Assembly: GCA_024742765.1 (NCBI GenBank)
Contig: JANSXT010000004.1
Coordinates: 1 to 64,000, forward strand
DNA: 64,000 bases
Source of the DNA: Phyllobacteriaceae bacterium
Lineage (GTDB): Bacteria; Pseudomonadota; Alphaproteobacteria; Rhizobiales; Rhizobiaceae
Reading direction: 5' to 3'
The notes beneath the pieces were generated by a model. The model made no database searches. It was not told where the DNA came from and saw nothing but the letters and a program-made list of their open reading frames with translations. The first letter of the stretch is position 1. Each line of letters begins with the position of its first letter. Of the stretch, positions 1-4,405 are shown in pieces. Both the position numbers and the translations under genes were made by a program.

Positions 1-2152
1 GTTCCTGATGGGGATCATGTTCCTGTCGATCGCCGGCTACACCGTGAACATCGTCGTCCTGTTCAGCCTGATCCTGGCGGTCGGCATGCTCGTCGACGAT
101 GCGATCATCGTCACCGAATATGCGGAACGGCGGATGGCGGAAGGGGTGGCCGCGCCGCCCGCATTTGCCGAAGCGGCACGGCGCATGTTCGGACCGGTGG
201 TCGTGTCGACGCTAACGCGCATCGCCGCCTTCTCGCCGCTTCTGTTCTGGCCCGGCATTGTCGGCGAGTTCATGAGCTACATGCCGATCACGCTGATCGC
301 GACGCTGTCGGCATCGACCATCTATGCGCTCTTGTTCGCGCCGACCATCGGCTCGATCGTCGGCAAGGCCGCAGTTCAGAAGCGCAAGCCGGACGGCCTT
401 TATATGGGCATGATCAAGAAGGCGGTGCGTTATCCGATCCTGACGATCCTTCTGGTGGCCGCGCTGATGGGCGGTGTGGTGACCACCTATGTCCAGAACA
501 ACAATGGCGTCGAGTTCTTCCCCACGGTCGAGCCCGAATATGGCCTTCTCTATGTCAAGGCGCGTGGCAACCTGTCGCTGGAAGAGCAGGACGATCTGGT
601 CCGGCGCGCTGAACAAAGACTGTTGTCCTGGCCCGGTGTGGAGACGGTCTACACCCGCGTCGGATCGAGCCGCGGTGGCCTGCAACTGGGCTCCGGCGGG
701 TCGGAAGACACGATCGGCACGATCCAGTACGAATTTATCGACTGGCGCGAACGCAAGCCGGCCAGCGACATTCTGACCGACCTGCGCGCGCAGTTTGCCG
801 ATGTGGCGGGCGTCAACATCGAGATATCGGTGCCCGATGCCGGACCGCCGCAGGGTCGGCCGATCCAGGTGCGGCTGTCCGCCGACGATCCGACCGGCCT
901 TGAAGAGGCGGCCGCCGGGGTCGGTGCCTATCTGCAGACGCTGCCCGAGATCATCGATCTGGACACGGGACTTCCACCGCTGAGCATTGACTGGGAGCTC
1001 AAGGTGGACCGGACAGAGGCTGCCAAGTTCGGGCTGGGTCCGGACTCGGTCGGTCGCGTCGTCCAGCTTGTGACCACCGGTCTCAAACTGTCGGACTATC
1101 GTCCCGCCGGCACCGACGATGCGGTCGATATCCGCCTGCGACTTCCCGAGGACCGGCGGACGCTGTCGACGCTGGACGAACTGCGCGTGGAAACAGCAGC
1201 AGGCTCGGTGCCGCTGTCGAATTTCGTCAGCCGCGAGCCGGCGGCATCGCTCGGCACGCTGACGCGCATCGACGGCGCCCGGACCATCACGGTTGAGGCA
1301 AACCTGGTCGAAGGCGTTCAGGACTCGGTCCTACAGGCGCAGGTGGCCGACCACATGGCGTCGATGGACCTGCCGCCCAACATTCGCTGGGAGATGGTCG
1401 GCTCCGACCAGGAGAGCGACGAGGCGGCCGCGTTCCTTGGCCAGGCGTTTGGCGTTGCAATCTTCCTGATCTTTGCGCTGCTGCTCGCCCAGTTCAACAA
1501 GTTCACCTATGTCTGGCTGGTCCTGTCGGCGGTGGTCATGTCGACCATCGGCGTGCTTCTGGGGCTTGTCGTCATGGAGATGCCGTTCTCGATCGTGATG
1601 ACGGCGGTCGGCACGATCGCGCTGGCCGGCGTGGTGGTGAACAACAATATCGTCCTGATCGACACCTATGCGCATCTGCGCAACAAGGGCGTCGACAAGA
1701 TGGAGGCGGTCCTTGAGACCTGCCGCGAGCGCGTGCGACCGGTAATGCTAACCGCCGTGACGGCGATCCTGGGCGTCTTGCCGATCGCGTTCGGCGTCAA
1801 TCTGGCACTGCTCAGCCACGAGGTGACGATCGGTGCGCCGTCCACCCAATGGTGGATCGCCCTGTCGAGCGCCATTGTGTTCGGGCTGGCCTTCTCGACG
1901 ATCCTGACATTGATCGTCACGCCCGCCGCGCTGATGATCTTCACCCGCGACAATGAAAGCCTGGCGGCTGGTCACTTCCTGACCCGCTTCGGCCGTTGGC
2001 TGCGGACACGGGTCCGCCGGAAACAGGCCAAAGCGCCGGCCGCCGCGCCGCAGCACGAGACAGCCGAACCGCCCGCAAAGCCAGAGCCTGCCGAACCGAT
2101 GCCCGAGGAACTGCCCGACGATGTCAGGCCGTTCCCCAAGGCGGCGGAGTAG
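1..2152 (+). CDS. RND efflux transporter permease (AcrB/HAE1-type), 5' truncated by window edge
   Basis: 714-aa ORF open at the left edge; multi-TM RND segments (LILAVGMLVDDAIIVTEYAERRM; TAVGTIALAGVVVNNNIVLIDTYAHLR). Confidence 0.93.
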   Translation, partial: FLMGIMFLSIAGYTVNIVVLFSLILAVGMLVDDAIIVTEYAERRMAEGVAAPPAFAEAARRMFGPVVVSTLTRIAAFSPLLFWPGIVGEFMSYMPITLIATLSASTIYALLFAPTIGSIVGKAAVQKRKPDGLYMGMIKKAVRYPILTILLVAALMGGVVTTYVQNNNGVEFFPTVEPEYGLLYVKARGNLSLEEQDDLVRRAEQRLLSWPGVETVYTRVGSSRGGLQLGSGGSEDTIGTIQYEFIDWRERKPASDILTDLRAQFADVAGVNIEISVPDAGPPQGRPIQVRLSADDPTGLEEAAAGVGAYLQTLPEIIDLDTGLPPLSIDWELKVDRTEAAKFGLGPDSVGRVVQLVTTGLKLSDYRPAGTDDAVDIRLRLPEDRRTLSTLDELRVETAAGSVPLSNFVSREPAASLGTLTRIDGARTITVEANLVEGVQDSVLQAQVADHMASMDLPPNIRWEMVGSDQESDEAAAFLGQAFGVAIFLIFALLLAQFNKFTYVWLVLSAVVMSTIGVLLGLVVMEMPFSIVMTAVGTIALAGVVVNNNIVLIDTYAHLRNKGVDKMEAVLETCRERVRPVMLTAVTAILGVLPIAFGVNLALLSHEVTIGAPSTQWWIALSSAIVFGLAFSTILTLIVTPAALMIFTRDNESLAAGHFLTRFGRWLRTRVRRKQAKAPAAAPQHETAEPPAKPEPAEPMPEELPDDVRPFPKAAE

Positions 2153-2713: not shown

Positions 2714-3748
2714 TCAGGCCGCCTGCCGCTTTGGCGTGATCAGGCCGCGGTTCACCAGGATTTCGGCGATCTGGACCGTGTTAAGCGCGGCGCCCTTGCG
2801 CAGATTGTCGGAGACGACCCACATGTTCAGGCCGTTGTCGAGGGTCTGATCCTCGCGAATGCGCGAGATGTAGGTCGCATCCTCGCCTGCGGATTCGTAG
2901 GGCGTGGTGTAGCCGCCATCCTCATGCTTGTCGACGACAAGGCAGCCCGGCGCCTCGCGCAGGATGTCGCGGGCCTGGTCGGCGGTGATCTCGTTTTCGA
3001 ACTCGATGTTGACCGCCTCGGAATGGCCGATAAAGACCGGCACACGCACCGCCGTGCAGGTGACCTTGATCTTCGGGTCGAGCATCTTCTTGGTCTCGGC
3101 CATCACCTTCCATTCCTCCTTGGTCGAACCGTCTTCCATGAAGACGTCGATGTGGGGAATGACGTTGAAGGCGATCCGTTTGGTGAACTTCTTGGCTTCC
3201 ACCGGATCGGCGACATAGACCGCACGGGTCTGCGCGAACAGTTCGTCCATGCCTTCCTTGCCCGCGCCGGAAACGGACTGGTACGTCGCCACCACCACGC
3301 GCCTGATCGTGGCCGCATCATGCAGCGGCTTGAGCGCGACGACGAGCTGGGCCGTCGAGCAGTTCGGGTTGGCGATGATGTTCTTCTTCGCAAAGCCTTC
3401 GATCGCGTCGGCATTCACTTCGGGCACGATCAGCGGCACGTCGGGGTCATAGCGGAACGCTGACGAGTTATCGATGACCACGGAGCCGGCCGCGCCGATC
3501 TTGGGCGCCCATTCCTTGGACACCGAGCCGCCGGCGCTCATAAGGCAGATGTCGGTGGTCGAAAAATCATGGTTCTCAAGCGCCTGGACATTCAGCGTCT
3601 TGTCGCCGAACGAGACTTCCTGACCGACCGAGCGGCGCGAGGCCAGCGGCACGACGGTGTCAGCCGGAAAGCCGCGTTCGGCGAGGATATCGAGCATTTC
3701 GCGACCGACGTTACCGGTCGCGCCTGCGATGGCGATTGTGAAACCCAT
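2714..3748 (-). CDS. asd: Aspartate-semialdehyde dehydrogenase
   Basis: MGFTIAIAGATGNVGREMLDIL...NPNCSTAQLVVALKPLHD; start placed at MGFTIA. Confidence 0.96.
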   Translation of the reverse strand: MGFTIAIAGATGNVGREMLDILAERGFPADTVVPLASRRSVGQEVSFGDKTLNVQALENHDFSTTDICLMSAGGSVSKEWAPKIGAAGSVVIDNSSAFRYDPDVPLIVPEVNADAIEGFAKKNIIANPNCSTAQLVVALKPLHDAATIRRVVVATYQSVSGAGKEGMDELFAQTRAVYVADPVEAKKFTKRIAFNVIPHIDVFMEDGSTKEEWKVMAETKKMLDPKIKVTCTAVRVPVFIGHSEAVNIEFENEITADQARDILREAPGCLVVDKHEDGGYTTPYESAGEDATYISRIREDQTLDNGLNMWVVSDNLRKGAALNTVQIAEILVNRGLITPKRQAA

Positions 3749-3786
3749 GGTTCCCGTCTCCTGTCTCCCCACTTGCGGTCGTGCGC

Positions 3787-3821
3787 CACTCTTCCCGCCC
3801 CCGGGAGAGTGTGGGGCGGAA
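3787..3821 (-). promoter_or_regulatory. Alternative hairpins in asd leader
   Basis: On the minus strand, CACTCTCCCG/CGGGAAGAGTG and TTCCGCCCC/GGGGCGGGAA share the same 3' arm and cannot both form. Confidence 0.55.
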
Positions 3822-3825
3822 CGGG

Positions 3826-3861
3826 TCAGATCGTGGTGGTCTTCTTGATCATGGTGCGCAT
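3826..3861 (-). promoter_or_regulatory. Candidate leader peptide ORF (MRTMIKKTTTI*) of an asd attenuator
   Basis: Minus strand ATG CGC ACC ATG ATC AAG AAG ACC ACC ACG ATC TGA; 10 of 11 residues are Met/Thr/Ile/Lys. Confidence 0.7.
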
Positions 3862-3870
3862 GGTGGCCGC

Positions 3871-3899
3871 CTAGTGCCGGAATGCGCGATCAATGTCAA
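3871..3899 (-). promoter_or_regulatory. Candidate sigma70-type promoter for asd leader transcript
   Basis: TTGACA-N17-CACTAG on minus strand, just upstream of the leader ATG; the -10 is weak. Confidence 0.4.
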
Positions 3900-3928: not shown

Positions 3929-4405
3929 ATGGCAGCAATCGGGATCAGATCGTCAACAGTCATCGGTTTGGCGCTTGGCTGCTGGCTTGGCGCTGCGAAG
4001 CCGGCACCGGCGCAGAGCGATGCGCTGGTAGGCCGGCTGACGGCCGACCGTCTGACGGCCACATTCGTCGGAAAGATCTTTCGCGGCCTCTATCAGGACG
4101 GGGTCAATTGGCGCGAGGCCTATCTGGTAGATGGTGAGGTCGACTATGCGGACGACTTTGCCGCCGCGCGCGGCGAATGGTTCACGCGCAACGATCTTCT
4201 CTGCACCTTCTATGATGGCGATCTGGACGGCGGCTGCTTCATCGTCATGCAGCGCGCCGACAACTGTTTCGACTTCTATGCGGTCGATCCGGACACCGAC
4301 GAGCCCGATGCCACGCCAAGCGCGATCATCGCCGGCTACGACTGGACCGCACAGGGCTGGCGGTCGGACCGGGTTCCGACCTGTCCGGAAGGGCTGGTGT
4401 CTTGA
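3929..4405 (+). CDS. Hypothetical secreted protein
   Basis: 158-aa ORF with signal-like N-terminus; LVGRLTADRLTATFVGKIFRGLYQDGVNWREAYLVDGEVDY. Confidence 0.75.
   Translation: MAAIGIRSSTVIGLALGCWLGAAKPAPAQSDALVGRLTADRLTATFVGKIFRGLYQDGVNWREAYLVDGEVDYADDFAAARGEWFTRNDLLCTFYDGDLDGGCFIVMQRADNCFDFYAVDPDTDEPDATPSAIIAGYDWTAQGWRSDRVPTCPEGLVS

Follow-up and report, generated by a model that had tools for sequence, protein, structure and literature searches.

A candidate Thr/Lys leader-peptide attenuator upstream of asd in the Roseitalea neighbourhood, with counterparts across Rhizobiales

The analysed DNA, a window of 64,000 nt, carries an asd gene preceded by a short open reading frame rich in Thr and Lys codons, and similar frames are conserved upstream of asd in many related bacteria. 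Comparative sequence analysis suggests, with a probability of roughly 70%, that this leader is part of a leader-peptide attenuator, in which the availability of charged Thr- and Lys-tRNAs would determine how strongly asd is expressed. The gene stands at the branch point from which lysine, threonine, methionine, isoleucine and diaminopimelate are made.

The leader, its promoter and asd

The Asd protein scores 458.8 bits against TIGR01296 asd_B (cut-off 324.2) and 518.7 bits against NF011456. It is 97% identical to its counterparts in one Tepidamorphaceae and one Roseitalea assembly, the nearest named records, and the source genome belongs to the Roseitalea neighbourhood. The leader proposed by an earlier, sequence-only reading is read directly from the minus strand (3861..3826) as ATG CGC ACC ATG ATC AAG AAG ACC ACC ACG ATC TGA, with 77 nt between its stop and the asd ATG at 3748 (Table 1). 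Among ATG-initiated ORFs of 9–25 aa it is the only one on either strand of the 64-kb window in which at least 90% of residues are M, T, I or K, and none appeared when the window was simulated 40 times with a first-order Markov model, which argues that the leader ORF did not arise by chance. At the genus level the leaders (L001, L002, L031, L142) differ by synonymous changes of Thr codons only. In one same-genus genome (G002:C18:434523-435483) asd matches in two pieces (query 1–38 and 58–344), which may represent a frameshift, an insertion or an assembly error, and the leader of that locus (L142) is intact. Between leuB and asd the window also holds a 158-aa ORF (3929-4405, plus strand), divergent from the asd leader, with a signal-peptide-like start and no NCBIfam match.

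Table 1. Features of the asd upstream region in the analysed window
Feature	Sequence or product	Position	Strand	Basis or remark
Leader ORF	MRTMIKKTTTI, stop	3826..3861	-	Thr/Lys-rich leader conserved 5' of asd; genus-level changes synonymous only
-35 element	TTGACA	3894..3899	-	sequence and comparative spacing
-10-like element	CACTAG	3871..3876	-	17-nt spacer from -35; comparative spacing
Segment A	CCGCCCC	3813..3819	-	directly after leader stop; pairs with C
Segment B	CTCTCCC	3803..3809	-	pyrimidine box; partner of C' in hairpin S2, alternatively of D
Segment C	GGGGCGG	3795..3801	-	partner of A
Segment C'	GGGaAGAGTG	3787..3796	-	forms hairpin S2 with 3811..3803, CACTCTCCC
Segment D, purine box	GGGGAGA	3764..3770	-	just 5' of asd Shine-Dalgarno; coevolution with B
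asd Shine-Dalgarno	AGGAGA	3757..3762	-	sequence
asd	aspartate-semialdehyde dehydrogenase, 344 aa	2714..3748	-	TIGR01296 asd_B and NF011456 profile matches

The arrangement TTGACA-N17-CACTAG, which the sequence-only reading had placed just 5' of the leader, is indeed present. Its CACTAG, 9 nt from the leader ATG, is a weak hexamer that was not called by a sigma-70 consensus scan, and the support for it is comparative: TTGAC lies 35–39 nt 5' of the leader ATG in 18/18 short-leader loci, and the usual distance in the long-leader group is ~50–54 nt, enough to accommodate a ribosome-binding site. Transcription is predicted to start at ~3865–3862, that is 0–4 nt before the leader ATG. Given the short spacing in all 18 loci, the Roseitalea clade probably has a leader mRNA that is leaderless or begins within a few bases of the AUG. 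A promoter-pattern search across 121 genomes was too unspecific to use.

Thr/Lys tails across relatives

The asd upstream regions were collected from 199 loci, some of which represent the same species repeatedly. In 87 of 177 such regions the tail of the best ORF held at least 8 Thr or Lys codons among its 14, a level that was found in no shuffled sequence and that compares with a maximum of 5 on the reverse strand. With the threshold set at at least 7 of 14, Thr/Lys tails were found in 26/36 genomes of the same GTDB family, 10/22 in other families of the order and 5/61 outside the order, these being counts of sampled genomes rather than of independent events; several loci below the threshold are clear short Thr/Lys/Ile leaders. 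Judged by their upstream sequences, candidate counterparts of the leader are present in most close relatives, in roughly half of the remaining Rhizobiales families that were sampled and in a few other Alphaproteobacteria. Many other alphaproteobacteria lack the Thr/Lys leader, and in these asd frequently comes directly after leuB. In one 700-nt locus (L152, genome G042) a very long, nearly perfect inverted repeat, CCAGCCCGCTCCCCCGGCCCAACCACCC ... GGGTGGTTGGGCCGGGGGAGCGGGCTGG, lies directly 5' of asd and occupies the place that the leader has in relatives.

The tails end in ...KTTAKTTTKTV in Rhizobium and Sinorhizobium, ...ITAKTTIKTV in Agrobacterium, ...KTTKTTA in Roseibium, ...KKTSIS and ...KTTIII in the Jiella and Aureimonas groups, and KKTTTI at the locus studied here. 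The N-terminal part of the leaders varies in length and sequence, and the C-terminal Thr/Lys block alone is kept. Across 51 leaders of at most 80% identity, the last 11 codons are 43% Thr, 22% Lys, 5% Ile and 2% Met, figures that describe the family and do not test it, since the tails were picked for their Thr/Lys/Ile content; the tests are the tail counts given above and the M/T/I/K simulation. In the same frame, codons -14 to -29 of these leaders hold 8% Thr, and no Thr richness was found in their other two frames. A check suggested earlier asked whether the short ORF keeps its codons across Rhizobiales while the flanks drift. The proposal that leader codons control asd is strongly supported in its Lys/Thr part, these codons being kept across families in drifting surroundings, but not for Met and Ile, which lie outside the conserved signal: Met is rejected as a sensed amino acid by its 2% share, and the 5% share of Ile makes its contribution marginal at most.

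Alternative folds and the candidate switch

The RNA between the leader stop and asd contains segments that can pair in two mutually exclusive ways, as A:C or as B:C' in hairpin S2. Coevolution of the partners was tested by comparing the own partner segment of each species with partners taken from other species. In windows that were picked after inspection of the sequences, and with species kinship outside the permutation model, this gave z 5.4 for A (+3..20) with C (+30..55) and z 4–5 for B (+15..34) with D (-34..-10), the observed B:D value being reached in 0/10000 permutations. Narrower windows were chosen because duplex energies over the whole region gave a weak signal (191/5000). B showed no coevolution with asd codons or with the middle spacer, which served as null controls; A (stop..S2) with D was not significant, and leader codons with A gave a weak signal (306/5000). 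In the 14 sequences of the short clade, 100% of A:C cells are paired. A covariation score on the alignment of these 14 sequences was not above shuffles, the alignment being too conserved and the S2 columns out of register. Striking single cases are CGTTTTGCTCTC:GAGAGCAAGACG in L143 and CGCTTCCC:GGGAAGCG in L005. The asd 5' regions of Aquamicrobium aerolatum and Mesorhizobium microcysteis (L046, L033) carry an additional palindrome-like insertion, placed after the D box and ahead of the asd start.

The stretch after the leader stop was folded locally for 24 species. In most of them the minimum-energy fold is the A:C hairpin as long as the ribosome has not reached the stop codon, and S2 once it sits on the stop codon and covers A. 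In Roseitalea itself (L001, L003) the local fold of the stalled state is mixed rather than a pure A:C hairpin. Mutually exclusive folds 3' of the leader, with the choice depending on the ribosome position, are thus predicted by modelling and supported by coevolution, with a mixed picture in Roseitalea.

No intrinsic terminator with a U-tract, the classical mark of thrL/trpL-type attenuation, was found between 3650 and 4000. Elsewhere the same kind of leader does come with such signals. In another lineage (L179, L191) a Thr/Lys asd leader is followed by a U-tract terminator called by the scan, and at two further loci (L192, L116) by a similar terminator-like hairpin, for which the scan called no U-tract terminator in L192. 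At all four loci the segment after the leader stop matches the 3' arm of the hairpin and so can pair with its 5' arm, in L192 and L116 by complementarity, which can be read as classical antiterminator logic.

The following switch would be consistent with these observations. The leading edge of a ribosome lies ~15 nt from its P site, so that A would be accessible while the ribosome stalls at the Thr/Lys codons and covered once it stands at the stop codon. Under Thr/Lys shortage the ribosome would stall at these codons and A would pair with C, placing B in the apical loop, from where it could pair with D beside the asd Shine-Dalgarno sequence; this A:C state would be the expressed one. When the ribosome reaches the stop codon, A would be covered, B would pair with C' in S2 and asd expression would be lowered. 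The direction of the switch is argued by analogy, A:C being taken as the expressed state in Rhizobiales on the model of the antiterminator lineages (L179, L191, L192, L116). B:D pairing would not be plain sequestration, since D lies upstream of the Shine-Dalgarno sequence and not on it. Equilibrium folding of whole leaders revealed no clean switch of Shine-Dalgarno access with ribosome position: access was ~0.3 at nearly all ribosome positions in the long-leader group, and in the short-leader group it rose from 0.45 when A was free to ~0.65 when the ribosome covered A, a trend opposite to the proposed sign.

In this clade S2 is not followed by a U-tract terminator, and the controlled step is therefore most likely the initiation of asd translation, which we prefer to Rho-dependent termination. 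In the latter, Rho would load on the C-rich stretch after the leader stop, whose accessibility would depend on folding and on where the ribosome stands, and transcription would end before asd. The C-rich character of this stretch, the lack of an intrinsic terminator between 3650 and 4000 and the apparent use of termination with the same leader in other lineages give Rho some weight, but the coevolution of B with D beside the asd Shine-Dalgarno sequence would be left unexplained, and we regard this mechanism as unlikely. More improbable still is that the leader merely serves constitutive translational coupling or re-initiation on asd, its composition being incidental. Its stop is only 77 nt away from the asd ATG, and B:D pairing would shorten the distance further; yet only one frame keeps the Thr/Lys codons, and it does so in leaders that vary widely in length and sequence, 5' of a gene of the Thr/Lys pathway. 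Action of the peptide in trans rather than through ribosome position has a precedent within the same order, the trp leader peptide peTrpL of S. meliloti (PMC10117765), but it is very improbable, as the leaders differ in N-terminal length and sequence and keep only the C-terminal Thr/Lys block. A metabolite riboswitch in place of a ribosome-sensing element, which the compact conserved RNA and its possible pseudoknot might suggest, is equally improbable, as the conserved features are helices and codons and neither the window nor nine relatives gave an Rfam 15 match at gathering score.

Related leader systems and significance for asd regulation

The preferred reading, a ribosome-sensing Thr/Lys attenuator, has relatives among known systems. 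The thrL leader peptide of enterobacterial thrABC carries codons for the end products of its pathway and senses them by ribosome stalling. The asd leader is likewise rich in codons of pathway end products; however, thrL is Thr/Ile-rich and accompanied by an intrinsic terminator, whereas the leader described here is Thr/Lys-rich, stands 5' of asd and lacks a terminator. The LEU element of actinobacterial leuA combines a candidate leader peptide with alternative folds, including a pseudoknot, that involve the Shine-Dalgarno region (PMC1262725). These three features recall the arrangement predicted for asd, but LEU belongs to another amino acid, gene and phylum, and in it the Shine-Dalgarno sequence pairs with the leader codons as such. 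The trpL/rnTrpL system of S. meliloti has a leaderless leader ORF, and its attenuator small RNA arises by transcription termination (PMC10117765); the bacterial order and, probably, the leaderless ORF are shared with the Roseitalea asd leader, while tryptophan and the termination-derived small RNA set it apart.

The closest counterpart is SEP5 of S. meliloti (Hadjeras et al. 2023, PMC10117765). This small ORF lies in the 5'UTR of an 'aspartate dehydrogenase' gene and contains, towards its 3' end, six Thr codons and three for Lys. Its translation was shown by Ribo-seq and Western blot, and it was proposed as a leader peptide 'conserved only in Sinorhizobium' (PMC10117765). The earlier reading, which knew of no described asd leader peptide in alphaproteobacteria, needs correcting on this point. 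The Sinorhizobium tails ...KTTAKTTTKTV contain exactly six T and three K, as SEP5 does, and from this composition and from position we infer that SEP5 is the Sinorhizobium member of the asd leader family. The Roseitalea leader shares with it the Thr/Lys-rich C-terminal block and the location as a small ORF in the asd 5'UTR, but it has 11 aa, without the long N-terminal part, and is probably leaderless; SEP5 was, moreover, reported without an RNA structure.

A proposed asd leader in S. meliloti has thus been known since 2023 (PMC10117765), and what the present analysis adds is the distribution of such leaders across the order and outside it, a short form that is probably leaderless, the absence of a terminator, and the coevolution of a box after the stop with one before the Shine-Dalgarno sequence. 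The sequence-only reading had noted neither the probable leaderless start nor the lack of a terminator nor the conserved candidate RNA switch after the stop. More tentatively, and at odds we put below even, these elements may together form an order-wide Thr/Lys asd switch. It would have shed the terminator that other alphaproteobacteria retain, would act through an RNA in which A:C and B:D together form a pseudoknot and connect the leader stop with the ribosome-binding region of asd, and in one clade would start from a leaderless leader mRNA. Relatives seem to use the same switch, some together with the usual transcription stop signal and some in its absence, which makes asd a single gene in which terminator-type and terminator-less attenuation may be compared between related bacteria. 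If true, a Thr/Lys-sensing leader would explain the tuning of asd in many Rhizobiales, including plant symbionts and agrobacteria, and an isolated observation in S. meliloti would become a lineage-wide system.
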